64,000 nucleotides of DNA, taken from a virus. The position numbers and the translations under genes were made by a program. The notes under the pieces were generated by a model. That model made no database searches and had not been told where the DNA came from. It saw nothing but the letters and a program-made list of their open reading frames with translations. This document shows positions 4,085-26,757 of the stretch, one piece after another (the stretch's first letter is position 1; each line of letters begins with the position of its first letter). The stretch lies in the IMG/VR virus record IMGVR_UViG_3300025655_000024, positions 16,180-80,179 of that record; one strand, written 5' to 3'.

Positions 4085-5200
4085 TCAAAATAATCTCGTC
4101 TGTATATGCCTTGGGTTGTTCAAGTGGTCTAACACACTTTCTGCCAAGGGATTCGTCACAAACGGTGAAAAGACATTCCCAATGACACCCGTTGAGGCAT
4201 CTGTGACGCTCTTACCCGACCTATATTTGTGACCTTCGGTGGGCGACCAATCGTAATTTTTAGGGAAACCCTGCATTACACCCAATTCCGAAGGAGTCAG
4301 CACACGATTGTAAATGTGCGTTGCAGGATTAGAGGACATCAAACCCGGTATTGTTTGCGATGCAGGGGAGGTGTGTTTCCATGTGTAGCCCTTTCTGTTG
4401 TCATTCCATTCCGACCCACCCGTTCCCACATCAACCGAACCCGTGTCATTGATGAACACATCACCCATCAAATACCGAGCAACATCAGGTCTTATAATCC
4501 CGCGCTGAACCAATTGAGCAAGTGTTTCTTCTTTGTGTCCACGAATTTCTTGTTCTTCTTCAAGCAAATGTGGTAAAGCATCTAATGGCGTGGTTGAAGG
4601 TCGTTGGAGTCGTGGGTCAGACAAGTCAAAACCCTGCCCAAGAACCGCCCTTTCACGATATGTCGGTGCGCCAAATTGTGCTGCCGTGACTTTCGGCATT
4701 CGCATTGATTGAAGCGAATCCATCCACCTCCTACGGTGAGGATTCCATGTGGCGTTTTCCATCAAATACGGTATGACTTTTGGGCTATTCTCAAAAGACC
4801 ATGAGTTAGGAGGGTTTTCGCTTGCTTCCAACATATCCAATAGGTTGCCGTAATTGTTGATGTGAGCCATACCGCGCATGGCTCGCTCATGTCCACTATC
4901 ACCAATGTTCAATGGTGATGCTCTTGAGAAATCAGGGCAAGGTGTGGATGCGTTAATGTGATATTTGCGACCACCCACCGCATCCAAGATTTCTTGCATC
5001 AACCTCGCATTGTCAAATTCATCACTCCCAATTGCCGCCCGTATATGTTTGGCTTCGGGGTGATTGGCAGCATGGGTGTCTAAAGCGGGCTTCCAATAAT
5101 CAACGGCTAATGCCGTAGGAATACCCTGCATTTTGAACCCTTGCGATACGCCACCGCCACCCGAATACAAATCAACGAGAGCAATATCGTCACGCATCAT
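4085..5200 (-). CDS. DNA cytosine-C5 methyltransferase
   Basis: The 371-residue protein shows the ordered motifs of C5 methyltransferases. Motif I is DLYSGGGGVSQGF (residues 10-22). Motif IV, with the catalytic Cys88, is STPCPDFSRA. Motif VI is SFENSPKV (Glu137), and motif VIII is QFGAPTYRERAV (175-186). The C-terminal motifs are LTPSELGVMQGFP and a GKSVTDASTGVIGN stretch corresponding to motif X. The motif IV loop has Pro-Asp where Gln-x is commoner. The enzyme would methylate cytosine C5 in a short recognition sequence, set by the variable region between motifs VIII and IX. It lies within tail genes with no endonuclease beside it and overlaps the upstream stop by 4 bases. An orphan, self-protective role is likely. 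Confidence 0.92.
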   Translation of the reverse strand: MMRDDIALVDLYSGGGGVSQGFKMQGIPTALAVDYWKPALDTHAANHPEAKHIRAAIGSDEFDNARLMQEILDAVGGRKYHINASTPCPDFSRASPLNIGDSGHERAMRGMAHINNYGNLLDMLEASENPPNSWSFENSPKVIPYLMENATWNPHRRRWMDSLQSMRMPKVTAAQFGAPTYRERAVLGQGFDLSDPRLQRPSTTPLDALPHLLEEEQEIRGHKEETLAQLVQRGIIRPDVARYLMGDVFINDTGSVDVGTGGSEWNDNRKGYTWKHTSPASQTIPGLMSSNPATHIYNRVLTPSELGVMQGFPKNYDWSPTEGHKYRSGKSVTDASTGVIGNVFSPFVTNPLAESVLDHLNNPRHIQTRLF

Positions 5201-5538
5201 CTCACTTCCATTACCACATCCACACGGATTTCGGTGGTTTGGTTTTTGCTAATTGGCACAAACGATGCGCGAAATGCGGGGTTGTCAAGGGGGGTTGCCC
5301 CATGCACAACGACCTCTTTCACATCGCTCGCTGCAATCAATTGAGTGTCAAATATGCCTGTCACCGACACGGTGCGATCATCAATGCGTTGAACCGTAGG
5401 TGTGACGGAGAAGGCGACATTACCTGCCCCTCCATCCCTTGTGGTAGCCCGCCCACCCGAAGTGCCAAGACTCATTTGGCTCACAAGTGATTGGAGGTGT
5501 TCGGCTAACTTGGCTTTGATTTGGTCTAAAACGGGCAT
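5197..5538 (-). CDS. Small tail-associated protein, unknown
   Basis: This 113-residue protein follows the giant hub protein directly; start and stop overlap as TAATG around 5538. The N-terminus is a short amphipathic helix, and the rest alternates hydrophobic and polar residues like a beta-sandwich (SVTGIFDTQL, EVVVHG, EIRVDVVMEV). Position suggests a tail-tip or fibre accessory protein. No family is recognised. Confidence 0.7.
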   Translation of the reverse strand: MPVLDQIKAKLAEHLQSLVSQMSLGTSGGRATTRDGGAGNVAFSVTPTVQRIDDRTVSVTGIFDTQLIAASDVKEVVVHGATPLDNPAFRASFVPISKNQTTEIRVDVVMEVR

Positions 5539-8500
5539 TATTTCACCTCATAGAATCGTGATTTGGAGTGTCCGATAGGCAATTGGCGACTTGAAGAAAC
5601 ACGAAGCCTCTCGTTGTCGGACACGGCTACGAGGCTTCCCGCCTTCAAAGTGATGGTGGTTGCGGTGACGGAATTGATATATCCGATGACCTCATGGTTA
5701 GCGTTCAACACCGCATCATGCTGTGCGAACCTCTCCGTAGCATCAACGCCATCAACGGTCATCGTGGTGGTGCTTGTAGCGTAGCCACCGCCATTGTTGA
5801 TTAGAACACCTGTATCACCACCACGCACACCGATGACCCCCAATTGATTCGTTGTTGGTTCGCCACGCCATCGCCCGCCTATAAGCAAACGAGTCCCGTT
5901 CACGAACCGTGTCATCACACGGTGTGCTGAAATCACTTGGATTGGTGCATTCAGGGTAATGTCAATTTGTTCATCGGTTCTTGTGGCATCATCATCGCTC
6001 GTCGTGGATGTTGATGTTTGCAGATCAGCCAACAGCCCTTCAATGCCCTTCTCGTATTGTCCCATCACAATGTCGGTGAGTCCTGTGTTGTAGTCGTTGA
6101 ACACTTCAAAGACAACGAATTCTCCTTTGATTGCTTCCGCTGTGAAATCAACACGGATTATTTCTCCGGGCTTGATGTCACTGCATTTGATGAGTCCTTC
6201 AACACGAATGAGTGCCGAGCCTTGTTCGGTTCTTCGCAATAGTCCCTTTGCCAAACGGAGAGCAACACTTCGTTCCTTTACCCCCAACACCTTCGTCTTG
6301 AGCGTGCGTTCCACGCCTTCGTCATCACCAACCCCGCCCATGCGTTTCATGCGTTCCAAGTCCTTAACAGAAGCCCGAACCGTTTCGTTGATAGCGATTT
6401 CATCACCCTCAACAATCACTTGGTTTGCCATTTCAAGCATTTGACTCACGCTGATATTGCGAGGGCCACTGCTTGTTCCAACCCGCCTCCCCATATCAAT
6501 GAAAATGTTAGGGGAATAAATCAACAACCCTTCTTCACTCAATGATAACTGATAGCCGTCAATTCGTGACAAATCACGCAAAGCATCCATAATACCAATA
6601 CCTCGTGTTTTGCGACTGATGAAGTGATGGCTGTGTAGCATAGCATCACGAAGGTTTGGATGAGCGAATAGAAATGCTTGTCGTGCGACTTCTGTGCTAT
6701 GATGAGCCGATGAATAATCCGCATAAACACCTGCATCGGTGGTTTTTTGTTCAAGGAACACACGGAATTTTTCAAGGTCAATTCCCGGTATGGATTTGAT
6801 GATGTCTTTCATCAACAATAAGGCGGCATCGGTGGTTCGCAACCCAACACCCATAAAGTGTCCAAGTCGCACACTGTTAATCTCCATCCCTGACGCTGAA
6901 AGTGAATTTTCTGTTAGGTTCTTGAATGTCAAGAATGTGTCATAGAAATCACCATCGCCCTCGTTGTTTTGTGCTTTAGCGATCCGCCATTTTTGATTCG
7001 TAGCATCAATGAGGTATGGTGGGAAGCGAGAGGGTATCATTTCAGTCCCATCAACATAGACCTTTGACATTCCCCCTGTTCCTGCGTTCCGTTTGTATGA
7101 AATCAATCCCGTGTTTTGTCCGTCATTCAGCACAAATGTCTGAGCAGATAGCATGAAAAAGTCAGATGGGTTGTAGTGTCCGATTCCACGATAGCCCATG
7201 TTGGTATTGATGATTGCACTATCGTCACTCGTGGTCGCATCCCATTTGTCCGAAAGCAATTTACCAACCGACACAGCGTTATCAACCAAAGAGGGCAACA
7301 CAACCAAGCCGAGTGAAGTGGGTGCTATGTTTTCAATTTTTGACACGGCTGAACCTGTATTTTTGCCCGCACGAACCGTATAGCCTGTGAGATCAGCCGA
7401 GGCACATTGAAATGTCAAAGTCAGTCCGTCAAATGTGTTATGAGTGCGACTTGTATAGGTGATTTGACCCGTCAAACCGATGATGACAAGCACCCCCGAT
7501 TGTGCAAACGAAGTGGCATCATCAACAACGATTTTTGATGGCGAAGCACTCTTTGCATCAAATTTAATCACAGCCTTAGCACCAAGTGCCAACATCGCTG
7601 TGCTTGGTTGCTTGACAACCGCATTAGCGTCTTTGTCGCGCTTGAGGTATGGATTAACCACCACCGTGTCATCCGTTGCATATACCGTTTCTGTTTGTGA
7701 AATGTATTCTCCACCACCTGCATGGGTGCTTTGTGAATATCGGGCTTCCACCAATGGCACAATTCTTCCCTCAGCGTCTTTGCGTGAAGCATCCGCTTTG
7801 AAGTGTTGAAGCATATTTGCTGATGGGATAAGATGCCACACAACATCACGGTTGTTAGCGTCAGGCCACTCAATCGTTGGTGCTGAATCGTAGGGAGAAG
7901 AAATGCCTTGAATGTCGCCAATTTGACTTGTTGTTGTCGTTTCAAACATACCGTAGCGTTTGTCACGGGTGTATGGTTGGTCTTTGCTTCCTGCTTGGGT
8001 GACGGTGCTGTATGGCCCAAGCAACCACCCGTCTTGATTCATGTCGTTGCCGTCACTATCGTTCTTGGTGGTGTAGCCAAACACCTTCAATGGTCGCACC
8101 ATACGAACAATGTAATCCGCATATTTTCGCACAGGTTGTGCCACCTGTGACTTGATTGCCGCATTCTTCCCCCCTTGCTTTGACCGCAAAGCGTCTGTGT
8201 TTTCAGGGCGTTCAAGCCATGTTTTGCGGAGGATAAACACCCCGCCCCATGCGGGCAAATCAGCCGACCCACGAACAGCCCAATGATCACGGACACCGAC
8301 ACCGTTTGCTTGGAGAATGTCATCACTAAACGGATTGCTCACCGCCGCCAAGTCCATGTCCTCATTCAACGACCATTTTGGTTTGGCAACCTTTTGATTT
8401 GGATTGGATTGACCCCCGTATGTTTCATCGGGGCGAGATGCGTCTGTTGTGATGCTTCCTTCCGAACCCCCGTATTTTGTCCATCGTGTGTCCTGCACCC

Positions 8501-11500
8501 ATGATGGAGTGATTGGGAACACTTGACCCACAGCCAAGTCGGAGTGTAGTGATACAGCCTTTGTGCTTGTCACCACATAATCGCTGTTTTCCCCTGTTAA
8601 ATACTCGCTATGCGTTTCAACACTCAAGCCCAAACGAGGTGCAACATCGGATTGCACTTGTCGGTGGTCGGCAATTTCGTGAAGTGGGATGGGGAGTGTT
8701 CCACGCTCGGCTTCGCCTTTGTCTTTCATGTTGAGGTTTGTTCCCCAACCAACCGCAGGGAAGTGTTGGTTGTCGGTATCACCGTTAATTTTGACATCAA
8801 CAGGGTGAGCGTTAAGGTGCAGGTTGTTCCCTTTGTGATGGTAAAATTCACTCCCCACACTCGCCCCAAATTCACTCGCTTGATATACGGCTTCAACAGA
8901 ATTCGCCGCCTTTGTTCTGTCGCCTGAGTGATGGTTCAAGCCGATGATAGGGTCTAACCCCGTGTTCATTGATTTGGCTTGTAAAAATTTAGCCGATGAG
9001 CCTGTGATTGTGGCAAATTCTGTTCGGTGTGCATCCACTACACCCGATGGCATAGCCCTGTGTGATACCATGCCGAGTGTTTCATCTTGAAGCACTCGCC
9101 CCATACCGACCCGTGTTTCAGCCTCAGTCCAAGGCGTGTTGGACAAGCGGTTGAAACCCTCACGCCCAATACCTTCGTTGGTGTGTTGGCTGATAACCAT
9201 GCCAATAGGCACAGTGCGTTCAATCCCTGTGTATGTGCTGTCACCCCATGCCCAATCACCGCCTGTCGGCAAATCGTTCATGCTGTCGTGCTTCCCGCCA
9301 TCAAAACGGGCTGACCGCAATATAGCATCCATTGAGGATGAGGTTTCAGCGGGGTCGCCCGCTAACATATTGAGAGCATCCGAAGCACCCTTGAAACCAA
9401 AGGCTCGCACAGGTAATCGTCGTGACAAATCCACAGCGACCATTGGATTTTGCACCACCGTCATTTCATTCCACTCATACGAATTGGTGGTGTCCTTATC
9501 CAATACCCATTTCGTGATGGCTTTGCGTGGGTTGAGTCCGTCACCAATGCCTTCTCCACGAGAATAGCGGGTGCTTGCACCCCTCAGCACAAAATGCTGA
9601 CGCAATTCAAGCGTGCCGTGTGGCTCACGCAATCCTGTGTGTCCCATCAACACCGCACTCGCTGAACGCTGACCCCAATTTGTGCCGTGTCCACCTGCGT
9701 TAAGTCCGTTGTAGCCGTATTGTTGTAGCCATTGAAATGCGTAAATGCGTTCAAAAGCCATTCCCTTATCCACAGAACCCGTGTCGGTGGCGGGGGCATT
9801 ACGCAAATACAATCCTCGCACTGATGGTTGATACACAGCGTTAGGCATACCTGCTTCACGGTATCGGAATGTCATGTATTGTTCTCGGCTTGTTCCGAGC
9901 AAAGCGGGGTGACTGTATTCAGCAAGCCATGTGCATAGGAACGCATCGGGGATGGCGTTTGAATTGGTGTCACTTGATGAAACTAACGCCAAGTCAGCGT
10001 GCGAGTCCTCCGCATCAAAATCCCCACTGCTTGATGGGGACTCCACATTGGCGACAGGCACAGCCGACATATTCACCATTTCAGGATCGTGAGCAATAAG
10101 TGGGGGAACGGTGGCTAACTCCGTTCCCACACGGGCTGTTCGCCAACCCGCAGGATGACCTGTCAAGGAATAATAGGTGTGTAGCCCATCGGATGCCTCA
10201 AAGCCATTTTGAATCCATGCGGGATTTGGTCGCCCTCCCATGAGCATATATTGCGAAAGCATGAAACCGTTCATGGCAAATTCTTCACCTGCGTTGTGCC
10301 TGTTATTGACGGTTCGTGAGCCAACAGTGAGGGCAATTGGCCCGGATGTTGCCGCACTTCCATACGGCCCAAAAGCCGCAGAATTTTGACTGTAATAAGC
10401 CGAAACCCACTGTGCTTGTTCCGTAGCACCCTCAACCTTCGTATGCAATTGACCGGGTGCAAATAGCAAATCAATTTGGTCGTGGGGCGTAGCACCGTCA
10501 TACCTTCTCCAATTCGGCAACCCTGCGTTTTTGATTTCGCTCATTGGGAAGCCATCGGATGCAAACGACCCTGTATTGTAGGCTTCGCTCTTGACCTCCA
10601 AAGTGTCAAGGTAATAGACGGTGGCTGACGGTGGGTCTATGCCTCCATTGTAGGCTGATTGAAAGCCCCAATGCTTGTGTTCTGTTTCAGCCTCAAAGAG
10701 CAACGAATATGCCGAACCGTGTGAGCGATGCAATTGCCTTCGCAACGCCATAGGTGTGCCTCTTGTGGTTAATGGTGCAACAAAGGAGTGGCCTTGACGA
10801 CCAAAACGGATGCGGTGGTGAGGGTGGAGGTATGAACCGTCAGCCCCGTTATTTGTGTCCAATAGCACCGAACCACGCTCAACATGGTCGCTAAGGCGGT
10901 GTGCCGCAAATAAGCGAGTCGTTCCGCTTGGCACGCCACCTGCGGTGGTGTTGAGCGTGAGTCCAAATTGACTCTCCATTTTGTCGTGAATAATACGCAC
11001 AGCGTGAAAGTGCAAAACCCTGTCGTGTGTGTCAAACGCTGTGACTTGCACATCCTTTGTTGAAGATTCAGCATCACCCGCTAAGCCCGAAGTCGGTGCT
11101 GACAACCCACCCATGCCCCATGTCAAATTATTCCATGCTTGAACACGATCATGCCCGGAACGCACGATGATATTGCCGGGTATTTCGTCTTGTGATGGGA
11201 GGTTGATTTCCAAATTGGGTTCAATTCCGCTTCCAACCGTTGAAGGAAGAGGTGTTTCTGTTCCCGTGTTAGGATTGAGGCGGGTCTGTTTGTAGGTGAA
11301 GTCTTTGATGACCGTTCCGAAAGGCGACCCCCCTTCTAAAATCAATTCCTGTCCTTTGTCATCAACGACTGAAATGCTGTCCCAAACCCGTTCTTCGTTA
11401 GGCACATATAGCCCACGAACACGCTCGGTGCTAACGGTTCTCGTGACACGATAAGGCCGACTCACATAGCCCAAAGAACCCACGAAGGGGCTTGTGCTTG

Positions 11501-14381
11501 TGCTAATTGTCGTGTTTTCGGATTTCAACCCGTTTTTGACAACAGCCTTTGCTTTGTCTGTGGTGCTTTGTCGCATATTGTTGAGTGTCGCATAATCACT
11601 TTCGGTGGCGTTTGTCATTGAACCGTATTTGCTCGCTATTTCATAGCCATTCTCCAATGCAACCGACCAATCACCCGTCTTTTTGATTTTGTAAAGGGGC
11701 TGAGAATCCACTAAATCAATGGTAGTGGGAGAGGATAGGGTGATTGTGGGACAAGCCCGATAAAGCAGGGTATCTGTGGCTATGTCTTTGTCCAAATTGA
11801 GCAAAAACATTCGTGAAAATCTGTATGAACCAAGTGTTGAAGGGGCATAAGCACCACGCCACAAACGACCAAAAATTTCCGACACACTGTTCATCAACAC
11901 ATTGGGGTTGGGGGCATAGGTGTAGTCGCCAATCGTTCCACTGACCGCACCCAACGCTTCAGGAGAAACGGTTGTCACGCCATCAGCATTTGCGTCATAA
12001 ACCTCAAGGTCAATGCCCGCATCAAAATCACTGCTCGTGTAATCAACACCCGTTGGTTTGCCATTATAGCGAATATCGCCACCAATTCCACCACTCACCG
12101 TAATTATGTCGCCCGCTAAATAGCCCGAACCTGCTGATGCTAAATTTACGGTTGCCTTGACGATAGCACCATTGAAGGTCACAATGTCCACCGTCATACC
12201 GACTCCCGATCCCGAAGTCGTTGTAGCCACACCTATACCGTCGCTATACCCCGTTCCTCCGATGAGCAATTCAATAACCTCATAATTCACTTTGCGAATA
12301 AAAATGATAGTCCCCGCATAAAGAGCAATTGTTTGATTATCCACCAATTCAATGGATGACCCATTGATATAACCAACCGTTCCAATTTCAACATTGGTTG
12401 AAGTGACAACAACATCACCAACCGCAAATTCTCCACTCAATGCCGAGAACACCAAGTGATTGTGAGTCGTAGTTAATCCAAGTGAAGCCCTGTGCAATTC
12501 ATCGGTTGCGGTGAGTGCCACCAATGGATCTTCCTGCAATTTTATCGTCGTTGCATTCGGAACATTGTCAATAAGGCCGACGAATTCACCACTTGGACTC
12601 CACACTTCTTGTCCCGCCGCAAATTTGGTGGTGGCATCCGTTCCTGTGACGGTTAAGGTTCTCCCTGATCGGCTTACGAAATCAACACCCGTATTTTGAA
12701 TTGCACCCAACAATTCCAATCCTGTGGTTCGGTGGGTTGGCCCTAATGCCCGCAACCCCATAGAGTGAATACCGCTAACACCATCAACAACACCAACACT
12801 TTGTCCGTCTTTGGTGTAAATCGTATCACCAATTTCAAAGTGGTCGCCAAACGCTGTGTTTGGAGTCATGGCGTTGAATTGGGACACACCCGCACTCAAT
12901 GTTGCGTTGGTGCTGACATAGCACTCCGTTTCTTTCAAAACAAATTCATCCAATTCTGTTCCGAATTCAACATCGTCAAGCAATAATTCATCATCGGCTA
13001 AAGCCGTTCTTTGATCGTTTAGCCCTGTCCATTGAAATGGGTCGGATGCCACTTCACCCATGATAACCGGGCCGTCAAAGGGCATATCAGGCGGTGGTAA
13101 ATCGGGCAATACGCACGAATTCAATCCTTCAATGGAGAATCGGCTATACCCGTGTCCACTCAAAGCGGATGGTTGTGCGCCCCGTGATTCGTGCGTAATG
13201 TCGGGCAACCCCATGTTCCCACCATCCATCGGCTTAGCGGTGAGATACCACACAGGAAGTGGCGCACCAAGACCTTGAACGATTGGGCCACCGTTTGCTG
13301 TTCCCCAATACCCACCGCCTGTCGGCGTGTCACTTTCCCATGACACCACGACAGTGTGCTGTTGTTCTGTTTCATTGTGGATTGTCCATGTTGGTTCGGA
13401 TCCCAACACGCCATCAAAATCATAGGCGGTGTTGTAGGCATACACATTGAAAGCGATTTGACCTGTTTGATTTAATGAGCCAAAATTTGAATCGGCAATC
13501 ACTTCCCACGAATCGTAATAGAGGATGTATTCATTGGATGAAATAGTCGTTGTCAATTTGCCCTTTTGTGGTATGTCGGTTGGCAAACGCACCGTAGGTG
13601 CATTGTTGAGGGCTTCGCCAATATACAATTCATCAAATGACATCAGCACTTTTCCAAGCCGAATTGGGTCACTGTCACTTAGGTCAGTCGCCAAATCCTC
13701 TTTCAAATACACCTTTGTGCCTCTCACTTCAAGGACTGTTCCAACAAAACGACTGTTTGCACCTGCGGTGTATAACTTGTCACCGGGATGGATAGTGCTG
13801 AGAACCAAGTCGTTGCCCGACGATTCTTTCAAGGTGATGTAATTTGCTGAACCCTTTGCTTGATTACCATTGGCTTCCCACTGCAAAGAACCCCCTTCGC
13901 CCCCTGTCAAAAAGCCGAGAGGATTCCAATTTACACCTTCGTAATTGGCTCGCCCTGACATTGATTGGTATTTGGCTCGCAAATATCGCCCCCGTGAATG
14001 CGACCCTGTTTGATTCGCACGAGATGAATTGATAGCGGATGCAATCATCATCGCCGCCTCTTTTGACCCTAAATCATAGGTCAATGACGACGAGGCGGCA
14101 CTCGCCGCATCACTCGCACGCTTCAAATCAATCACATAGAAATTGTCACCGTTGCTATATGTGCCAACGGAGTCATTCGCCAAATTTGTTCGCACCAAAA
14201 AGTGCATACCGAGAGCGTTGCCACCACCCGCCCAAGTGAAAGTGGTCGCATCTGTATATTCGGTGTCAGGATAAGTGAAATGGAGGCTGAAATAGCCACT
14301 TGGGGGTCGTGCGTCATCACTCCCCATAGTGCGTGTGTCGGCAGGGTAGTCCTGTCGCTTGAACGCACTCACCTCAGCCAT
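5538..14381 (-). CDS. Giant tail-tip/hub protein with repeated beta modules
   Basis: At 2,947 residues this is the largest protein of the window. Residues about 2525-2785 resemble the phage baseplate-hub fold (gpD/gp27-type): DALRDLSRIDGYQLSLSEEG, then LLIYSP, a long helical segment, and DIKPGEIIRVDF. This would sit on the tail tube and link to the host. Residues about 705-765 carry a glycine-rich repeat with GTGY and GSGY turns, common in phage tail proteins. Several copies of a module of about 65 residues (pattern ATxxF..GD.V....G..VG.V.......ITL....V.L) occur near residues 180-245, 485-535, 565-630, 645-695 and 2855-2925. The gene starts 1 nt after the upstream stop. Long polypeptides of this kind usually mediate receptor contact. 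The exact domain limits need structure prediction. Confidence 0.85.
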   Translation of the reverse strand: MAEVSAFKRQDYPADTRTMGSDDARPPSGYFSLHFTYPDTEYTDATTFTWAGGGNALGMHFLVRTNLANDSVGTYSNGDNFYVIDLKRASDAASAASSSLTYDLGSKEAAMMIASAINSSRANQTGSHSRGRYLRAKYQSMSGRANYEGVNWNPLGFLTGGEGGSLQWEANGNQAKGSANYITLKESSGNDLVLSTIHPGDKLYTAGANSRFVGTVLEVRGTKVYLKEDLATDLSDSDPIRLGKVLMSFDELYIGEALNNAPTVRLPTDIPQKGKLTTTISSNEYILYYDSWEVIADSNFGSLNQTGQIAFNVYAYNTAYDFDGVLGSEPTWTIHNETEQQHTVVVSWESDTPTGGGYWGTANGGPIVQGLGAPLPVWYLTAKPMDGGNMGLPDITHESRGAQPSALSGHGYSRFSIEGLNSCVLPDLPPPDMPFDGPVIMGEVASDPFQWTGLNDQRTALADDELLLDDVEFGTELDEFVLKETECYVSTNATLSAGVSQFNAMTPNTAFGDHFEIGDTIYTKDGQSVGVVDGVSGIHSMGLRALGPTHRTTGLELLGAIQNTGVDFVSRSGRTLTVTGTDATTKFAAGQEVWSPSGEFVGLIDNVPNATTIKLQEDPLVALTATDELHRASLGLTTTHNHLVFSALSGEFAVGDVVVTSTNVEIGTVGYINGSSIELVDNQTIALYAGTIIFIRKVNYEVIELLIGGTGYSDGIGVATTTSGSGVGMTVDIVTFNGAIVKATVNLASAGSGYLAGDIITVSGGIGGDIRYNGKPTGVDYTSSDFDAGIDLEVYDANADGVTTVSPEALGAVSGTIGDYTYAPNPNVLMNSVSEIFGRLWRGAYAPSTLGSYRFSRMFLLNLDKDIATDTLLYRACPTITLSSPTTIDLVDSQPLYKIKKTGDWSVALENGYEIASKYGSMTNATESDYATLNNMRQSTTDKAKAVVKNGLKSENTTISTSTSPFVGSLGYVSRPYRVTRTVSTERVRGLYVPNEERVWDSISVVDDKGQELILEGGSPFGTVIKDFTYKQTRLNPNTGTETPLPSTVGSGIEPNLEINLPSQDEIPGNIIVRSGHDRVQAWNNLTWGMGGLSAPTSGLAGDAESSTKDVQVTAFDTHDRVLHFHAVRIIHDKMESQFGLTLNTTAGGVPSGTTRLFAAHRLSDHVERGSVLLDTNNGADGSYLHPHHRIRFGRQGHSFVAPLTTRGTPMALRRQLHRSHGSAYSLLFEAETEHKHWGFQSAYNGGIDPPSATVYYLDTLEVKSEAYNTGSFASDGFPMSEIKNAGLPNWRRYDGATPHDQIDLLFAPGQLHTKVEGATEQAQWVSAYYSQNSAAFGPYGSAATSGPIALTVGSRTVNNRHNAGEEFAMNGFMLSQYMLMGGRPNPAWIQNGFEASDGLHTYYSLTGHPAGWRTARVGTELATVPPLIAHDPEMVNMSAVPVANVESPSSSGDFDAEDSHADLALVSSSDTNSNAIPDAFLCTWLAEYSHPALLGTSREQYMTFRYREAGMPNAVYQPSVRGLYLRNAPATDTGSVDKGMAFERIYAFQWLQQYGYNGLNAGGHGTNWGQRSASAVLMGHTGLREPHGTLELRQHFVLRGASTRYSRGEGIGDGLNPRKAITKWVLDKDTTNSYEWNEMTVVQNPMVAVDLSRRLPVRAFGFKGASDALNMLAGDPAETSSSMDAILRSARFDGGKHDSMNDLPTGGDWAWGDSTYTGIERTVPIGMVISQHTNEGIGREGFNRLSNTPWTEAETRVGMGRVLQDETLGMVSHRAMPSGVVDAHRTEFATITGSSAKFLQAKSMNTGLDPIIGLNHHSGDRTKAANSVEAVYQASEFGASVGSEFYHHKGNNLHLNAHPVDVKINGDTDNQHFPAVGWGTNLNMKDKGEAERGTLPIPLHEIADHRQVQSDVAPRLGLSVETHSEYLTGENSDYVVTSTKAVSLHSDLAVGQVFPITPSWVQDTRWTKYGGSEGSITTDASRPDETYGGQSNPNQKVAKPKWSLNEDMDLAAVSNPFSDDILQANGVGVRDHWAVRGSADLPAWGGVFILRKTWLERPENTDALRSKQGGKNAAIKSQVAQPVRKYADYIVRMVRPLKVFGYTTKNDSDGNDMNQDGWLLGPYSTVTQAGSKDQPYTRDKRYGMFETTTTSQIGDIQGISSPYDSAPTIEWPDANNRDVVWHLIPSANMLQHFKADASRKDAEGRIVPLVEARYSQSTHAGGGEYISQTETVYATDDTVVVNPYLKRDKDANAVVKQPSTAMLALGAKAVIKFDAKSASPSKIVVDDATSFAQSGVLVIIGLTGQITYTSRTHNTFDGLTLTFQCASADLTGYTVRAGKNTGSAVSKIENIAPTSLGLVVLPSLVDNAVSVGKLLSDKWDATTSDDSAIINTNMGYRGIGHYNPSDFFMLSAQTFVLNDGQNTGLISYKRNAGTGGMSKVYVDGTEMIPSRFPPYLIDATNQKWRIAKAQNNEGDGDFYDTFLTFKNLTENSLSASGMEINSVRLGHFMGVGLRTTDAALLLMKDIIKSIPGIDLEKFRVFLEQKTTDAGVYADYSSAHHSTEVARQAFLFAHPNLRDAMLHSHHFISRKTRGIGIMDALRDLSRIDGYQLSLSEEGLLIYSPNIFIDMGRRVGTSSGPRNISVSQMLEMANQVIVEGDEIAINETVRASVKDLERMKRMGGVGDDEGVERTLKTKVLGVKERSVALRLAKGLLRRTEQGSALIRVEGLIKCSDIKPGEIIRVDFTAEAIKGEFVVFEVFNDYNTGLTDIVMGQYEKGIEGLLADLQTSTSTTSDDDATRTDEQIDITLNAPIQVISAHRVMTRFVNGTRLLIGGRWRGEPTTNQLGVIGVRGGDTGVLINNGGGYATSTTTMTVDGVDATERFAQHDAVLNANHEVIGYINSVTATTITLKAGSLVAVSDNERLRVSSSRQLPIGHSKSRFYEVK

Positions 14382-14382
14382 G

Positions 14383-17300
14383 TCAATCCCACACCGTTAG
14401 AGCATTATACAATTCCGTCACTTCGTCAGCGGTAAAAGCCTTTTTCCATAGAGCAATATCAGCAAGACCGCCTTTGAAATAAATGGGGTCTGTGTTATTT
14501 GATGTTCCACTGTGATGTCGCCCGTAAAAATATGTCCCCGATACGCTGTAAGAGTGCAAAGCAGTGCCGATGGTGAGCATATTGGTGTTCCTTCCATAAA
14601 ATCCGCTTGAAAGGGCAACACCCTTCTGTAAATCGTCATTGTTGTTCAAAGCGACTATGTTTTTGGTTGTTAGGGTAATTGCGGTTGCCGTCAAAGAGGC
14701 GACGACCCCAACAACATTCCCACTTGGGTCAAACACTGCATCACCGATGCTAAATTGGGTGGTTGCATCAACCGTATCAACGACAATAGTGACATTTTCG
14801 CCCGCTGTGTAGCCACCTGATTTGTTCACAAGGACACCCGATGCTGTCACATGAGGAACACCAATGGCGGTTGGCAAATGTGGGCTGTTTCCTGCTGTTC
14901 CGTTGCGGTATGATGACGAATCAATGTTCCCCAATTGTGTCACGCTTGACCCCAAACCACTCAATTCTTGAACACCGTTCACGAATACAGAAGCGGTTGG
15001 GTATGTTCCTGTTCTCGCCACCACAACATGATGCCATGCGTCTTTGGGCAAAGGTGCGAGAAGCGTAATCCTGTAATCCGATTGGCTTCCCAAAGCCTGT
15101 GCTGTTCTCACCAAAATAATCACATCCATCATGTTTGGGTCAATTGCATTTTCTTTGGTTTCAATGCCCACGCCAAATGTCCCGTTGTTCGTGTCAATGC
15201 CTTGAATGACAGGCCCATTTCCATAGGCTTCGCTTGTCCACGAACCTGTGTTGGGTTTAGCCGAGAACAAAAATGACACCGACCAATCGTCATTGACGGC
15301 ATCAATGATAGGAACACGCAATTGTGGGCTTTGACCCATCCCTGCGGATTGTTTGTGAAGGGATATGGCGGCGTTATCCGCTGTCGCTAAGTCAATTCCT
15401 TTTGATTCGGGATCAACGCTAATGGGTGCATCCACCCCATCAATAGCCGATGCTGAAAAATTGCCGTAGGCGAGCAATTTGCGACCAAAGAGGGTTTCAA
15501 GAACCAATTCTTTCCCGTCTGTTCCGTGATTTGTGCTGAATAGTCCACCTTCATTCAAGCGTGCATAAAACAAGCAATCGTTGTCCATCGTATGTGCTAA
15601 ATTGTCAGCAACGCCTGATGAAACGAGAGTGTATTTTCCATGCAATCCACGATATGTGTTTTCTTTGACGGTATCGCTATTCTTCAATTTGGTGAAATCC
15701 AATACGGCGGCGGATGTTTGAACCTCTTGAAGATTTTGAAAGCCACTATACCCCGTTGGGCCTTGAGAATAATGGTGAGTGTAAAAGTCCGAATAATCGT
15801 TGTCTGTTCCATCGCTGATGTCAAAGACCGTTCCTGTGTGTCCACCACCAAAGAACAGAATACCGTGTGCATCAGGCAAAGGATAGACGATTTTGATGAC
15901 CGCCTCTTTGCTATTGCCTTCGCGATCCACAAACAATTCAGTCCACTTCTTTGTTAGGTCGTCATCAAGGGGTCTTACCGTTCCCAAAAAACAGCACGCA
16001 CCGACTCCATTTACACGGCACTGCGTTGCCCCAATGTTCGCTACGATATTTTCAAAAGTCCCTATCAAAGCATCATCAACGACAATATAACCGAGATTTG
16101 AAGATGAGGTGTTTTGTGATAAACGGCTGATAACATCCAATGCCTTTCTTTCAACGGCAATATGCGGGAATGAATTCGTGTCATAAACGGGCCAAAAGTC
16201 GCCATCCTTTTGACGAGCGTTTTTGACTGATTTGATGATGAATTCGCTTCCGATTCCGTTGTAGGTTCGCAAATTACCACCACCATCCTCCACCCGCCCG
16301 TGAACACCGCCCTGAAATGTGGTAATCGGAATGTGTGTTTCACCATCCATGCCCAATGGCAAAGGGGCGGCAAAGGATGAAGCCTGATATGACCGACTGT
16401 TTGTAGCCAACAAACCACCGTGTCCTATTGCTTGAATAGGGCGATAAGGATAAGGACTGTTGTTGTGAAGCCATAGGGCGAAATTGCGACCTGTTGCACC
16501 CGGAATAGTGCTGTGTATAACAATAGATATGCCCACTTCTCCATCACGGCTCTCCACTTCTTGTCCAATAAATGCACGCACATACCCCATGTGTGTTCCT
16601 GTATCAAGACTTGACACTGTTTCTGTTCCATCGGTTTCGGTGAATAATTGTGGTGGATTGAAGGCACTTCCACCGTTGGTATTTTTTGCATTGGGATGAC
16701 CTGCTTGATTGATGAGTCGGGTGATTTCATTGACACCTTCTTTGAAATTACTGACATTTTTTGAATTGGCAACCGTTCCAAGGTTTATATGGAGTGGGCG
16801 AACATGGTCTAAGGTTTCATCATTACGCTTGCCTTTTAGAGCAAAATGTCCTGTTCGGCATTCAACAGGTGGTTGAAGCGGGAAGTCGTCATCACCAAAC
16901 AAATGGTTGCTCGGATCAAAAGAGAAGCCTTCCATTGTTGGCCCTTTGTTAATTAACAGCCGTGAGTCGTCTGTTGGGTCAATGCAAATCGCTGTTTTGT
17001 TGTCGGATGTTGAACGCCCCAAACACAAAGCATAGCGCATTGGGTCAATGAACGCTTGGGCCATTGTGCTATTGCTCGTTCCAACCGTAGCGGAGAAGCC
17101 CGTGAGTGCCTTGACTGTGCCGTTGTAATGAAAATCATCATCCGATAGCCAACAACCCATCACAACGGGCAAACCGATAATGAATTGGTCTTGCACTTCA
17201 CTCAATGTTGCGTCTTTATCAGCCCAATCGTGCCACGAATCAAAATATAGACGATGGCTCAATCCTTCAATTGACACTTTATACACACGGACACGGATTC

Positions 17301-20205
17301 CGCCCGTGTCGTTTATCACGCCTTCTCCAATCGTGACAGCGAATCCGTTGTCGCCGTTTGGTGTCGCACCCGCCGCCCCAAACGACCAATACGGTGAACC
17401 CAACGGTGTGTTGTTCACCAATGCTTCAGGTATGCCTGTCCTAAGCGTGATGTTTGTTGATGTCACGCTTGACACAACGCCAAGGAGTGAACCTGTGTTG
17501 TGGTTATACACTTCGTCACCGGGTTTGAATTGGGTGGTTGCATCAACCGTATCAACCGTAAGGCTCGTTTGACCGATGGGATGACCACTCAAAGCATTGA
17601 TTAACACACCTGTGCTTGTGGTGTTGTAATTCGGAACATCAATTCCACTTTCTTGAATAAACGGCTGAACATCATCAACCTCAATGTAAGCATCCGTGTA
17701 GGCTGAACCTCCTGTGGCGGTGGTTTCACCGCCTGAATATGTTCCCAATTTCAAATATGACGATGCGTTTTCTCGCATAAAACGAATGATTGTTCGCCCC
17801 GCAACCATGCTATAATTGTGGACTTTGAAGGATGAAACCTCCCCTCGCAACCCCCAATCAATCGCCCACCGATTCTCATAATTTTGCATTTGTGGGCGAT
17901 TAACAGCCGACATGGTGCAATCAACAACGATTTCCATTGACTTATCGCTCGGTAGTGGACTCCTTCGGTATTCACTATCAGGCAAAATTTGCTCAATGTC
18001 ATAGAACATTGAGGGGAACAACGGCAATTCAACCAATGCTCTCGTTGATGCGTAATAGGTGGAGGTTTGCCTGTCGTTTCGCACCGATGGGTTGTTTGTC
18101 CCAATCACCTTATCCTTCCACACAGGCAATTTGCTGTGTTCTGTTCGCACAGGGGCAACATCAATACCGCCTTGCCCCAAACCACCAAGTGTGATGCTCA
18201 CGGTTGGCGATCCCAAATCACCGATTTCTTTGATTGGGAAGCCTTCATTCAAATCAAAATCCCTTTCGCTAATTTTGTCCGTAATGTCAATCAATTGTGA
18301 ACGACCACGAAGGGCTACGCCTCCACTTGACATATCACCACTCACAGGATTGATTTCCTCAACACGCCCTCGCATCAAGGTCATTTCAATTGTGCAATTG
18401 TGATATGAATTGACTCCGTTTTGCTGAGTGTAAATAGTGTTGAGGGTCTTTGTTCTGTTCCTGTTTGACGGATGAATTAACAACAAATGACGGTCTGCCT
18501 CAACGATGTTATCAATGATGTCAAATTGTTCGTAATTGACAGGTTGCATGAATGGGTTGTCATTGTCGTTAAGTGTGTCCTTGTTTTTGTTTGATGATTG
18601 AATGGTGATGGTGTGGTAAATGCTGTCATTTTTGTCAGTGATTGAGCGTGTGTTGCTGATGGCGATTGGAGAACCATACCCATCGTCACGAATGCGGTTG
18701 CCCGCAATTGTTTCTTGAATGACGGTGTGAGCGCAATTTTCAACATTGACGAATGGCGAAATTGCCAAATCCCCCGTGGGATTTGCCCGCAACGAGTGGT
18801 TGGTTAAACCTGATTGAAAATCCTTTGAGGGTATGGCGATGAGTCCACCCGGTGCGTGCAGGGTGAGAGCATCCCATGTGGGCGGTGAACCAAATTGGTC
18901 GGCTGTGTAAGGTCGCCTAATCCAATCCAAAATAGACCGATATACAGGGTAGCCATTGGAGTTATCAACGAACACCGTATTGGTATCGGGCATGGTTTTT
19001 TCAACAATCAACCAACCTTTCTTTGACATGGTGTTGATACCGTCAATGTCGTTTCGGTATGTTTGAGCATGGGATGCGGGTGTGAACCACGAATTGTTGC
19101 CTTTCCACCCCGCAACCAATTCACCTGTTGGATCAATGGCGTTGTAATAGATGAGAATTTGTGGTGGCCCTCCTGCATTACGGAGGGCTTGTGGGGTTTC
19201 CAACACAGCAATTCGGCTCTCCTTCTCAGGAGTGACATGACGAACATAATTTTCGTTTGTTGGCTTGGTTGGGTCAATCATGTCAAACAAAGCATCCTCA
19301 TCGGTGTCCAAGCCTTTTAATGAGAACGGGCGAATGTCCTCCACAGCGATAGCCACCATCGTGTCTTGTGACGACGACACTACATTCCCGTAGGTCGTAT
19401 CAATGAAAGAATTGCCACCTTGAGCAACAATAGCGTGCTTAACGATGCTCGTGCCGACTGTTGTATATGTGCTGACTTGTGATGAGGTTTGCACATTCAA
19501 TGCTTCACCAACAAACACACGCTCGGTCACTTTGACCCTTTCATTTTGAGTCACCAATGTTTTCGCATACGGATCTTCGTATTGGCTTTCAAATTGGTCG
19601 GCTAAACCTTGAACAGTGCGTTTAACAGACTCAATTTTTGGTTGAGGCAATTGCTTCAAAAAGAAGTGACCCTCCACACGATTGTAGGTTGTCAAACCAC
19701 ACATACCTGCAATATCCGTTGTTGGCTCAATGACATTACCTGATACCGATGTGAATTCATCACCCGTCGCAGGTGGGTTGCCACTTCCGAAAATTGTGAT
19801 GGATGGCACACCGTTGAATGCGGCGGTGATGTCACCTGACGAGAGGATGGTTGAACCTCCGTTTGCATGAAGAAAGAAATAATCATCCAAGTCACTAACC
19901 GTGTGTGTTGGAGGTTGAGGCGGGGCGAGCATATTCGCACTGAAATTAGCCAACATAGAAGCCTGTAAAGCCGAACCCGTAGCCAAACCTTTGGTGACAA
20001 GCCAACGGATTGTATGATAAGCCGAAATTGCCGCCTCGTTTTGAAAAATTTCAATCGGTGGGCCTGAATAGCCGGGAAGAATTGGCACAAGCGTAATCGG
20101 CCCACCTTGAGCCAAATTGTTCACGGCATTCGTCAATTCCGTAGTCGCTGTTCCCGAATCGGTAGCGATAGCCGTGAGGATGAGTGTTTCTGTCAATTCA
20201 GTCAT
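14383..20205 (-). CDS. Giant tail protein with C-terminal LamG-like domain
   Basis: The 1,940-residue protein is predicted extracellular and beta-rich. Residues about 1610-1940 form a concanavalin/LamG-type fold: DWSVSFLFSAKP, then DAWHHVVVARTG and ASVFVNGVQ, ending GGLADIALWKKAFTADEV, the usual last strands. Between the last two parts lies a complete copy of the module shared with the giant hub (about 1787-1860), and a second copy lies at about 862-934. The two copies share 29 identical bases (14753-14781 and 17528-17556). LamG folds in tail proteins commonly bind surface sugars, so this may be the adhesin. It lies between the hub gene and another lectin-like protein. Confidence 0.83.
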   Translation of the reverse strand: MTELTETLILTAIATDSGTATTELTNAVNNLAQGGPITLVPILPGYSGPPIEIFQNEAAISAYHTIRWLVTKGLATGSALQASMLANFSANMLAPPQPPTHTVSDLDDYFFLHANGGSTILSSGDITAAFNGVPSITIFGSGNPPATGDEFTSVSGNVIEPTTDIAGMCGLTTYNRVEGHFFLKQLPQPKIESVKRTVQGLADQFESQYEDPYAKTLVTQNERVKVTERVFVGEALNVQTSSQVSTYTTVGTSIVKHAIVAQGGNSFIDTTYGNVVSSSQDTMVAIAVEDIRPFSLKGLDTDEDALFDMIDPTKPTNENYVRHVTPEKESRIAVLETPQALRNAGGPPQILIYYNAIDPTGELVAGWKGNNSWFTPASHAQTYRNDIDGINTMSKKGWLIVEKTMPDTNTVFVDNSNGYPVYRSILDWIRRPYTADQFGSPPTWDALTLHAPGGLIAIPSKDFQSGLTNHSLRANPTGDLAISPFVNVENCAHTVIQETIAGNRIRDDGYGSPIAISNTRSITDKNDSIYHTITIQSSNKNKDTLNDNDNPFMQPVNYEQFDIIDNIVEADRHLLLIHPSNRNRTKTLNTIYTQQNGVNSYHNCTIEMTLMRGRVEEINPVSGDMSSGGVALRGRSQLIDITDKISERDFDLNEGFPIKEIGDLGSPTVSITLGGLGQGGIDVAPVRTEHSKLPVWKDKVIGTNNPSVRNDRQTSTYYASTRALVELPLFPSMFYDIEQILPDSEYRRSPLPSDKSMEIVVDCTMSAVNRPQMQNYENRWAIDWGLRGEVSSFKVHNYSMVAGRTIIRFMRENASSYLKLGTYSGGETTATGGSAYTDAYIEVDDVQPFIQESGIDVPNYNTTSTGVLINALSGHPIGQTSLTVDTVDATTQFKPGDEVYNHNTGSLLGVVSSVTSTNITLRTGIPEALVNNTPLGSPYWSFGAAGATPNGDNGFAVTIGEGVINDTGGIRVRVYKVSIEGLSHRLYFDSWHDWADKDATLSEVQDQFIIGLPVVMGCWLSDDDFHYNGTVKALTGFSATVGTSNSTMAQAFIDPMRYALCLGRSTSDNKTAICIDPTDDSRLLINKGPTMEGFSFDPSNHLFGDDDFPLQPPVECRTGHFALKGKRNDETLDHVRPLHINLGTVANSKNVSNFKEGVNEITRLINQAGHPNAKNTNGGSAFNPPQLFTETDGTETVSSLDTGTHMGYVRAFIGQEVESRDGEVGISIVIHSTIPGATGRNFALWLHNNSPYPYRPIQAIGHGGLLATNSRSYQASSFAAPLPLGMDGETHIPITTFQGGVHGRVEDGGGNLRTYNGIGSEFIIKSVKNARQKDGDFWPVYDTNSFPHIAVERKALDVISRLSQNTSSSNLGYIVVDDALIGTFENIVANIGATQCRVNGVGACCFLGTVRPLDDDLTKKWTELFVDREGNSKEAVIKIVYPLPDAHGILFFGGGHTGTVFDISDGTDNDYSDFYTHHYSQGPTGYSGFQNLQEVQTSAAVLDFTKLKNSDTVKENTYRGLHGKYTLVSSGVADNLAHTMDNDCLFYARLNEGGLFSTNHGTDGKELVLETLFGRKLLAYGNFSASAIDGVDAPISVDPESKGIDLATADNAAISLHKQSAGMGQSPQLRVPIIDAVNDDWSVSFLFSAKPNTGSWTSEAYGNGPVIQGIDTNNGTFGVGIETKENAIDPNMMDVIILVRTAQALGSQSDYRITLLAPLPKDAWHHVVVARTGTYPTASVFVNGVQELSGLGSSVTQLGNIDSSSYRNGTAGNSPHLPTAIGVPHVTASGVLVNKSGGYTAGENVTIVVDTVDATTQFSIGDAVFDPSGNVVGVVASLTATAITLTTKNIVALNNNDDLQKGVALSSGFYGRNTNMLTIGTALHSYSVSGTYFYGRHHSGTSNNTDPIYFKGGLADIALWKKAFTADEVTELYNALTVWD
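14753..14781 (-). repeat. 29-bp identical repeat, copy 1 (module near C-terminus)
   Basis: These 29 bases are identical to 17528-17556 and encode VDTVDATTQ in the shared beta module of the protein at 14383-20205. The flanks differ, so the identity marks either a recent duplication or gene conversion within the gene. Confidence 0.85.
17528..17556 (-). repeat. 29-bp identical repeat, copy 2 (internal module)
   Basis: Second copy of the 29-base identity with 14753-14781, in the internal module (about residues 862-934) of the same protein. Confidence 0.85.
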
Positions 20206-24117: not shown

Positions 24118-25692
24118 TCAAACACCCCTGCTAAATCCACCACTACGGCTTCGGCTTCTAAACGCCTTTGATACCTCATCACTTATGGCTCTCGCCAATT
24201 TTTGAGGATCGCCACTCGCACCATTGACGGTGATATTGACATTGTTCGTGCCTCCACCACCACCCATGCCTTCAATGGTGACAGGGATTGAACGCCCATC
24301 AGGGAGAGGCACAACGGCTTCTGTTCCGTGTAGGGCTACGGGATAGCCTGATGTCGGCCCTTTGACGACACCGCCATCGGAGAAGCCAAGCAAACCGCCA
24401 ACAGCACCACCGATGCCACTCGCAACACTGCTGATGCCACCGACCACAACATCAATGGCATCAATGATTGGTTGAAGATAGTCCATGATGGCTTCAACAA
24501 TGTTTGCGAAATGTCCTTTGATGCCTTCCCAAACGCCTTTCCATGTGTCACCTATGGACTTGAAAATTTTCGCTGCGCCATCCAAATCCCCTCGCAAAAG
24601 AGCCAATGCAGCACGAATAACCTTGATGACGGTGTTCACCACGCCCATGACAACACCAAGAATGATACCCCACCACGAAATCACCATTTTCGCATATGGT
24701 GCGATGAAGGGCCATAGCACTTGGATAATTTTCATCACTACGGCAATAATCACGCCCGTCACAACAATGATGGTTGAAACAATTTCAAACACAAGTGCGA
24801 TGATGTTTCCTATGAATTCAAAAATCCCCGAATTCTGCAACCAATCCACCAAGAATTGCCACAAATCACGGATGCTTTGAAAGAAATCGCTGATTGCTGA
24901 ATCCCCAAATAGTGCGGTGATAAAACCCCATAGTGTTCCAAGTGCCGTAAAAATAGATGAAATGCCATCAATGACGGTTTGAATTGCACCTGATTCAGCC
25001 AAAGCCGTGTAAAGCGATGTCACGAGTGTCACGCTCGTCAATACGCCTTCGGATATGATGGTGAATAGGATGCCCAATGTTGTCATTATCCCGCCAAAAA
25101 TTTCCTCAGCATTGAAGGGAATAGAAACGCTCGTAGTCAGCGTTTCCCATAGAGCCAACAATTCGTCAATGATTTTCTGTCCGTTTTCAAACACAGGTGC
25201 AAACAAGCCCCCTCCGCCTTCACCACTCAACACACCCTTTAGGACATCAACAGCGGTTTGGATAGCACCAAATACGGTGCTGATGATCGGCATTTCCTCC
25301 AACCAAGCACGAAGTGAACCGCCTCCTTGATCCAACGCAGCGGTAAAGAGCATCATCACCCCAAGAATCGCCATCACCATGCCGACAATGGGAAAAATCG
25401 CCATCGTTAAGCCCTTGAATAATCCAAGAACCATTGTCAGCGGTATAGCCAAACCCTTGAGGGATTTGGTGAGAATACCTCCCGTTTTCGTTTGTTGCTT
25501 AAACGAACCTGTCACGCTATCCGTCGCCATTTGGACTTTGGTGTAGGTTTTGTAAATCGGCCCTAAAGTCTTGAGAAGCATTTGGTGTTGATTGGGCAAA
25601 CGGATGATTTGGTCTTGGTATTTGTTGAGGGTTTGAATGACATCAAGAAGGGCAGCATCCATGCCCATGATTTGCTTGTTTCCCCCCGCCAT
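24118..25692 (-). CDS. Tail tape measure protein
   Basis: The 524-residue protein has the hallmarks of a tape measure: an N-terminal helical part, long hydrophobic stretches (for example near residues 85-120 and 285-345), and a C-terminal segment GLLGFSDGGVVKGPTSGYP then HGTEAVVPLPDGRSIPV, a signature at the end of many such proteins. It sets tail length and may help DNA passage. With the usual 0.15 nm per residue, a tail near 80 nm is expected. The ATG at 25692 overlaps the preceding stop as TGATG. It follows the tail assembly chaperone frames, as in lambda-like phages. Confidence 0.9.
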   Translation of the reverse strand: MAGGNKQIMGMDAALLDVIQTLNKYQDQIIRLPNQHQMLLKTLGPIYKTYTKVQMATDSVTGSFKQQTKTGGILTKSLKGLAIPLTMVLGLFKGLTMAIFPIVGMVMAILGVMMLFTAALDQGGGSLRAWLEEMPIISTVFGAIQTAVDVLKGVLSGEGGGGLFAPVFENGQKIIDELLALWETLTTSVSIPFNAEEIFGGIMTTLGILFTIISEGVLTSVTLVTSLYTALAESGAIQTVIDGISSIFTALGTLWGFITALFGDSAISDFFQSIRDLWQFLVDWLQNSGIFEFIGNIIALVFEIVSTIIVVTGVIIAVVMKIIQVLWPFIAPYAKMVISWWGIILGVVMGVVNTVIKVIRAALALLRGDLDGAAKIFKSIGDTWKGVWEGIKGHFANIVEAIMDYLQPIIDAIDVVVGGISSVASGIGGAVGGLLGFSDGGVVKGPTSGYPVALHGTEAVVPLPDGRSIPVTIEGMGGGGGTNNVNITVNGASGDPQKLARAISDEVSKAFRSRSRSGGFSRGV

Positions 25693-26377
25693 CACTTCAT
25701 CCCCGCATTCATCCGTTCAAAGAAGTCTATGTCGCTTGTGGTCTTGACAGACCTCCCCTTCGTTTGACCCACAGCGTTCTCACGCTTCAATTTGTCCATT
25801 TCTTTTGCCTCTATTTCCTTGAATGCGACCATCGTGTAATAGTCCAAAATCACACGCTCAGGAGGCAACCCATCCCATTGATGAGGCGAGCAATTGAAGA
25901 AGCGACCCAAAAAGAAAACGGGCATTTGGTTAATCAACACAGGCAATTTGTGCTGAGATACAGGGATTTCACCCTCTCCGTTCCATGTTGTAAAGGCACG
26001 AACATCGTCAAGGGTTATTCCAAAGGGCCTGATGGGTTGCTCATGCTTTCGGTGAGTGAATCAAACGAAGGCAGGATTTTCGCCAATTCTTGACCGACTT
26101 CAGGTCGGATGTTGAGCAATTGGCTCTTTGACAATTCGGGTTCAGTCCTCTCAATGCAATTCACGAGCAAGAATTTCCAAAAACCACCGAAATCAATGCT
26201 TGGCTGAGGCGTGCCATCCTCGCCCTGCTTCAATGAAACGAATTTAGTGAGAGCGTTTTGCCTGTCAATCCACGACAGATCCTTAACCCATACGGTCATT
26301 TCACCGAATGGGGTGTCAATCGTGTGTTCTGTTGCGTCTGTTGATGCGACCAAATCATTGGGGTTGGCTTTCTTCAT
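25692..26377 (-). CDS. Tail assembly chaperone, -1 frameshift product (gpGT-like)
   Basis: This entry is the fused product: the first frame is read from the ATG at 26377 to the slippery site at 26021-26027, then a -1 shift leads into a frame open down to 25692. The downstream frame has no good start of its own (a TTG at 25946 is internal) and is open well upstream of the site. The extension reads FGITLDDVRAFTTWNGEGE, then PVFFLGRFF, LPPERVILDYYTMVAF and a charged helix, and ends at the tape measure start. In lambda and many siphophages such a fusion (gpGT) recruits tail tube protein to the tape measure. The fusion is inferred from sequence, not shown. Confidence 0.75.
26015..26377 (-). CDS. 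Tail assembly chaperone, short form (gpG-like)
   Basis: The 120-residue short product ends at TAA 26017-26015. The ATG at 26377 is preceded by AAGGTGAAACAG and is preferred to the TTG at 26428. The sequence has FGEMTVWVKDLSWIDRQNAL, then FGGFWKFLLVNCIERTEPEL and a last part with QLLNIRPEVGQELAKIL, which fits small acidic tail assembly chaperones. Gene order also fits, between tail tube and tape measure with only the SAP-domain gene between. It overlaps that upstream gene by 23 bases. Chaperones of this type are not part of the finished virion. Confidence 0.8.
   Translation of the reverse strand: MKKANPNDLVASTDATEHTIDTPFGEMTVWVKDLSWIDRQNALTKFVSLKQGEDGTPQPSIDFGGFWKFLLVNCIERTEPELSKSQLLNIRPEVGQELAKILPSFDSLTESMSNPSGPLE
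26021..26027 (-). other. -1 ribosomal slippery heptamer C CCT TTG
   Basis: Read in the short chaperone frame, the minus strand has GGC CCT TTG GAA TAA. The heptamer C CCT TTG fits the X XXY YYZ rule exactly (X = C, Y = T), and slipping back one base gives CCC TTT GGA in the long downstream frame. It lies only two codons before the short-form stop, as is usual for tail chaperone genes. Confidence 0.75.
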
Positions 26378-26720
26378 CTGTTTCACCTTCACTGACGGCT
26401 TCGGCTTCACCGCTATCGTCAGCCTCAAGGCGAGCGATTAACTCAGCCTTCGTGCCTGTGGTTGAAAGCCCACGCTGACTACAAAGTGTCATCAATTCAG
26501 TCTTGTTCATTGACTCGTAGTCGGTGGGTGTTTCTTCAACAGGTGCGGGCGTGGATAGTGGTTCGGGGACAGGTGGTGCGGGAGGGGTGATATTCACCGT
26601 TGCCTCCACATTTGACGGGGACAAATTCCCTGCGCTGACAATCACACCATCAGGCATGACAGTCCAATCAAGAGAAGTCTTTCGCCCGTCAATAATCACA
26701 TACCCTGTTAGCCTTACCAT
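26355..26720 (-). CDS. SAP-domain protein in the tail gene block
   Basis: The 121-residue product has an N-terminal beta part, a Pro-rich linker (residues 46-66) and a SAP-type helix-extended-loop-helix at about residues 68-99 (MNKTELMTLCSQRGLSTTGT, KAELIARLE). SAP domains bind DNA in other proteins. The tail is acidic. I chose ATG 26720 over the frame's first codon at 26729. It lies between the tail tube gene and the tail chaperones, an unusual place for a DNA-binding domain; a role in the tail lumen or in DNA ejection is possible but speculative. Confidence 0.75.
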   Translation of the reverse strand: MVRLTGYVIIDGRKTSLDWTVMPDGVIVSAGNLSPSNVEATVNITPPAPPVPEPLSTPAPVEETPTDYESMNKTELMTLCSQRGLSTTGTKAELIARLEADDSGEAEAVSEGETDEESQPQ

Positions 26721-26757
26721 CTGTATCAACCCTCACATTTGTCGCATATAATCCTTT

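Follow-up and report, generated by a model that had tools for sequence, protein, structure and literature searches.

Comparative sequence evidence for programmed −1 ribosomal frameshifting during expression of a tail chaperone in a magrovirus-like virus of marine archaea

Comparative analysis of a 64,000-nt stretch of viral DNA (IMG/VR record IMGVR_UViG_3300025655_000024, positions 16,180 to 80,179; hereafter the window) leads us to propose, with high confidence, that a magrovirus-like tailed virus whose hosts are marine archaea uses a programmed −1 ribosomal frameshift to translate its tail chaperone gene. This is not the first archaeal case; it is of the same kind as lambda G/GT and has an unusual, invariant heptamer. 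The relatives of this locus very probably provide unusually clear evolutionary evidence that tail chaperone −1 frameshifting also operates in marine archaea.

Results and Discussion

Organization of the probable frameshift locus

The gene G (26015..26377, minus strand) encodes a predicted tail assembly chaperone of 120 aa in the zero frame, from an ATG start to a TAA stop (26015..26017, minus strand). Its 3′ end on the minus strand reads ...TCA GGC CCT TTG GAA TAA, as described in the first-pass annotation of this DNA, and includes the in-frame X XXY YYZ heptamer C CCT TTG (26027..26021), which is separated from the G stop by a single codon. An open −1 frame extends from 26060 to a TGA at 25692 (minus strand), and the extension T comprises 111 codons when counted from the heptamer (25692..26027, minus strand). 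The range previously given for G plus T (25692-26377) is correct; the −1 frame, which had been said to be open upstream of the site, opens only 33 nt 5′ of the heptamer, and the overlap is short. The first ATG, GTG or TTG of the −1 frame in the window is a TTG at 25946. Directly downstream lies the tape measure protein gene (24118..25695, minus strand; PHROG tape measure families, best E 3.8e-13), whose start overlaps the T stop. A count over 44 genes on the minus strand of the window placed in-frame X XXY YYZ heptamers at 0.46% of codons, and the site in G is the only one located at most four codons from a stop. From this we conclude that the placement of the heptamer at the end of G is far beyond chance.

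The predicted fold of G and its homology to G of HVTV-1 identify it as a tail assembly chaperone. PHROG tail assembly chaperone families were matched by 14 of 23 G members, and a profile alignment with G of HVTV-1 (hhalign) gave an E value of 8.7e-6. The AlphaFold model of G is confident (pLDDT 85) and matches the tail assembly chaperone of HHTV-2 in a fold search (E 5e-6); a fold search of G against the PDB gave no significant match. For the T domain, the searches made returned no recognised family. A viral fold search found nothing significant, annotated phages gave no tblastn hit to the T frame, and T is not detectably related to that of the Druskaviridae (HVTV-1, HCTV-5). The chaperone match of G, the slippery heptamer, the startless −1 frame and the adjacent tape measure gene agree with the gpG/gpGT arrangement that the first-pass annotation had put forward.

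Two further observations concern the neighbouring genes. The gene directly 5′ of G (26355..26729, minus strand) encodes a protein with a C-terminal SAP domain (Pfam PF02037, E 5.6e-11), which makes it an odd neighbour for a tail gene. Past the tail genes, two giant ORFs follow on the minus strand (5538..14381, 2947 aa; 14383..20205, 1940 aa). Pfam gave no match for the former and only a Laminin-G-like stretch in the latter; both are possibly adhesins or fibres.

Conservation of the slip site and of both reading frames

Relatives were gathered stepwise by IMG/VR scans with the G and T frames, which yielded 56 distinct loci in which automated matching to G and T profiles detected both parts. The second part lies in the −1 frame in all 56 loci, and CCCTTTG is located exactly 10 nt (one codon) 5′ of the G stop in every one of them, with no substitute heptamer; the expectation that the heptamer and both frames would recur in related genomes was thus borne out. 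The G and T proteins of related loci diverge to about 35-40% identity to those of the window, and the G stop itself varies among TAA, TGA and TAG. In a codon alignment of 23 sequences, CCT and TTG of G together with CCC and TTT of T are the only invariant codons among about 55 degenerate, amino-acid-conserved columns, and other conserved codons near the heptamer drift. The G residue following the heptamer is E, A, V or G and tracks the free third base of the Gly codon in the T frame, which points to selection on the −1 frame right after the slip site.

That the break between the frames is a sequencing error or the trace of a decayed gene, the true protein being encoded in a single frame, might be suspected since the loci come from metagenome assemblies. 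This explanation is refuted by the comparative data, as 56 distinct loci, drawn from many assemblies, all show the identical break between frames that are intact and conserved, and we regard its probability as negligible.

For the analysis of start codons and RNA structure we used 39 representatives, which are <85% identical around the slip site. None of them has a start codon between the opening of the −1 frame and the heptamer, which is consistent with the earlier claim that this frame has no good start of its own. In 19 of the 39 the −1 frame opens just 0-6 nt before the heptamer, which leaves the heptamer as the sole point of passage from G into the T frame in these 19. T could instead be a separate gene with its own internal start, e.g. 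TTG, or be translated by termination-reinitiation at the G stop. TTG codons are indeed present in the −1 frame past the G stop, and 15 of the 39 representatives carry a start-like codon 8 codons after the heptamer, but no start position is common to most of these relatives and three lack any start within 40 codons. Moreover, the motif GIT.DD is conserved in the −1 frame ahead of any start codon, and even the synonymous sites of the heptamer do not vary, which makes a separate T gene very unlikely. Relatives without the heptamer, or with a T start before it, would have spoken against frameshifting; none were encountered (56 loci and 39 representatives, respectively).

A predicted hairpin downstream of the slip site

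A putative 3′ stimulatory hairpin is located at 25971..26015 (minus strand) of the window, with an outer stem CCCTT/GAGGG and its first pair 5-6 nt past the heptamer. When a folding window of 50 nt starting 4 nt 3′ of the heptamer was applied to the 39 representatives, the mean z was −2.37 at the hairpin position; at 33 other offsets within G and T it never fell below −0.91 and averaged about −0.3. The first hairpin pair is located 5-8 nt 3′ of the heptamer in 33 of the 39 representatives, and pairing is kept while the stems differ by lineage (CCCTT/GAGGG, CTTCTCC/GGAGAAG, CCTACCC/GGGTAGG, CTTACCC/GGGTAAG). In 18 same-register sequences, both-sided changes were found in 5 of 9 hairpin pairs, and the covariation score was reached by none of 500 shuffles and was lower for slid registers, a control that leans towards the chosen register, which was taken from single-sequence folds. 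The evidence for the hairpin is weaker with smaller sequence sets. In several representatives, among them L007, L025, L051 and L113, the hairpin has no excess stability, and the outer pairs are missing from some representatives. We conclude that the predicted RNA structure falls in the range, 5-9 nt after the heptamer, where a 3′ stimulator of programmed −1 frameshifting is expected, and that it is weak in some members. The first-pass annotation had suggested looking for a downstream pseudoknot; the structure found is a hairpin, and a pseudoknot was not demonstrated.

The frames might also be joined by slippage of the RNA polymerase instead of the ribosome, which occurs in some other genes (PMC5009743). 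However, the heptamer keeps one phase relative to the reading frame in 56 of 56 loci and the hairpin follows at ribosomal spacing. In addition, the longest run at the site consists of three identical bases, fewer than known cases of polymerase slippage require. Transcriptional slippage is therefore extremely unlikely to make the shift.

Other signals were considered as well. RNAalifold applied to the whole junction paired the heptamer with the downstream GAGGG, a structure that we discounted, since the heptamer would be covered by a ribosome positioned on the slip site, and an Rfam search of the frameshift region returned no family. Strong Shine-Dalgarno (SD)-like pairing is present 10-20 nt 5′ of the heptamer in about 90% of the representatives and absent in the window, and synonymous randomisation (41/300) gave no indication of selection on this element beyond the amino acids Gly-Gly-Glu. 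On these two grounds, a bacterial dnaX-like 5′ internal Shine-Dalgarno stimulator was rejected.

Proposed mechanism

We infer as follows that slippage occurs, how efficient it is and what G and GT do. Most ribosomes would read G through to the TAA, while a minority, holding tRNA-Pro at CCU and tRNA-Leu at UUG, would slip one base back to CCC UUU, stalled during the slip by the hairpin starting 5-8 nt downstream. The slipped ribosomes would then read GGA AUA ACC... in the −1 frame and produce a G-T fusion with the junction GPL/GITLDD. By analogy to lambda, G and GT might coat the tape measure protein, with the T part recruiting tail tube subunits, and the frameshift would set the G:GT ratio.

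Under tandem slippage the A-site UUG has already been read as Leu when the shift takes place, and the predicted junction peptide is therefore GPLGITLDDVR. The peptide proposed earlier, GPFGITLDDVR, requires the P-site tRNA to slip by itself (CCU to CCC), in which case Phe is inserted to give GPFGITLDD. Such a variant of the −1 frameshift is favoured by the wobble mismatch that arises when the A-site UUG re-pairs as UUU, and P-site slippage is one route seen for fucA1 in E. coli (PMC8211752). The same mismatch, like a heptamer with Z = G, which is disfavoured in the classical rule (PMC8211752), counts against the proposed frameshift in general. X XXY YYZ sites, however, usually shift by tandem slippage, and the invariance of the full heptamer (56/56) is expected if both tRNAs re-pair, so that we consider P-site-only slippage rather unlikely and prefer the tandem shift. 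As a tentative idea, which we consider somewhat doubtful, the invariance of C CCU UUG may reflect a peculiarity of the tRNA-Pro, tRNA-Leu or ribosome of Poseidoniales, and a dnaX-type three-part signal (SD-like GGCGGTGA, heptamer and hairpin) may also operate.

Comparison with known frameshift systems

The programmed −1 frameshift of lambda gpG/gpGT is conserved in phage tail chaperones (Xu, Hendrix and Duda 2004, as reviewed in PMC5009743). As in lambda, a short chaperone gene is located just 5′ of the tape measure gene, an X XXY YYZ site is found near its end and the −1 frame extension lacks its own start. Unlike in lambda, the heptamer is C CCT TTG, a conserved 3′ hairpin follows, the host machinery would be archaeal and T of the window is not homologous by sequence search. 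The heptamer, the startless −1 overlap, the position of the tape measure gene and the homology and modelled fold of G nevertheless suggest that the locus belongs to the lambda G/GT kind.

Tail chaperone −1 frameshifting was predicted earlier in HVTV-1, HCTV-1/2/5 and Hardycor1 (PMC5009743, PMC8211752, PMC7911831), and a joined chaperone CDS is annotated in the records of HVTV-1, HCTV-1 and HCTV-5 (NC_020158, NC_021330, NC_021327). The slip sites in these joined-CDS records are G GGA AAG or G GGA AAC, 34 nt 5′ of the stop. The Druskaviridae HVTV-1 and HCTV-5 are likewise archaeal tailed viruses with a related capsid protein and a related G, but they carry G GGA AAG 34 nt before the stop (L085:5585-6339 and L088:5733-6487), whereas C CCT TTG precedes the stop of the window by 10 nt. 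As G is homologous and the slip site differs, the site has apparently moved or changed between lineages.

Experimentally, −1 frameshifting by archaeal ribosomes was shown only for fucA1 of S. solfataricus, a cellular gene with A AAA AAT whose interruption is absent from most fucA1 relatives, the viral cases being predictions in haloviruses (PMC8211752). The suggestion that the locus reveals programmed −1 frameshifting in archaea is thus supported with regard to the process and not with regard to its newness, since haloviral cases had already been predicted and annotated. The relatives add several dozen natural versions of a single site that have diverged and whose hairpins covary. They come from viruses of marine archaea belonging to an abundant group not yet in culture, and represent a ready test set for frameshifting by archaeal ribosomes. 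They also guide annotation of the GT product, which is missed by gene callers.

Affiliation of the virus

The 80-kb record encodes an RFC small subunit, whose best solved match is archaeal RFCS, a family B polymerase (PolB) with archaeal best matches, an XPF/ERCC4 nuclease and a weakly matched clamp. ERCC4 matches archaea only (14 control genomes) and is present in 13 of 19 related contigs, while PolB and RFC were found in 8 of the 19. Archaeal viruses are the only matches to the capsid protein among 50,697 phage records. The archaeal RFC, PolB and XPF, together with capsid relatives restricted to archaeal viruses, argue for the archaeal virus assumed in the first-pass annotation, and from these genes we infer a marine archaeal host; two scans of cellular genomes revealed no provirus or host relative of the frameshift locus.

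The virus appears magrovirus-like and fits the magroviruses of Poseidoniales (Magrovirales; PMC10768690, PMC10160649). These archaeal Caudoviricetes are of marine or estuarine origin, encode RFC-S, a sliding clamp, PolB and an ERCC4 nuclease, and share with the virus the opposite orientation of the replication and structural modules. By predicted gene content, the Magrovirales set of RFC, clamp, PolB and ERCC4 occurs here in one tailed-virus genome, with a weak match for the clamp. A tail assembly chaperone gene is annotated in magroviruses (PMC10768690, PMC10160649), and we found no report of a frameshift in the magrovirus papers searched. Membership in the Druskaviridae, a family proposed to descend from marine archaeal viruses of this sort (PMC8651126), was rejected, since the major capsid protein is only 31-32% identical to that of HVTV-1 and the slip site and T differ.

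Three contigs of 86-107 kb (L055, L058 and L060) carry the same frameshift and ERCC4, with no relative of family B polymerase or RFC detected, and may use another replication set or be incomplete. Finally, at least three DNA methyltransferases of different classes occur in one virus genome (1349..2506, plus strand; 4085..5200, minus strand; L037:11348-12973).
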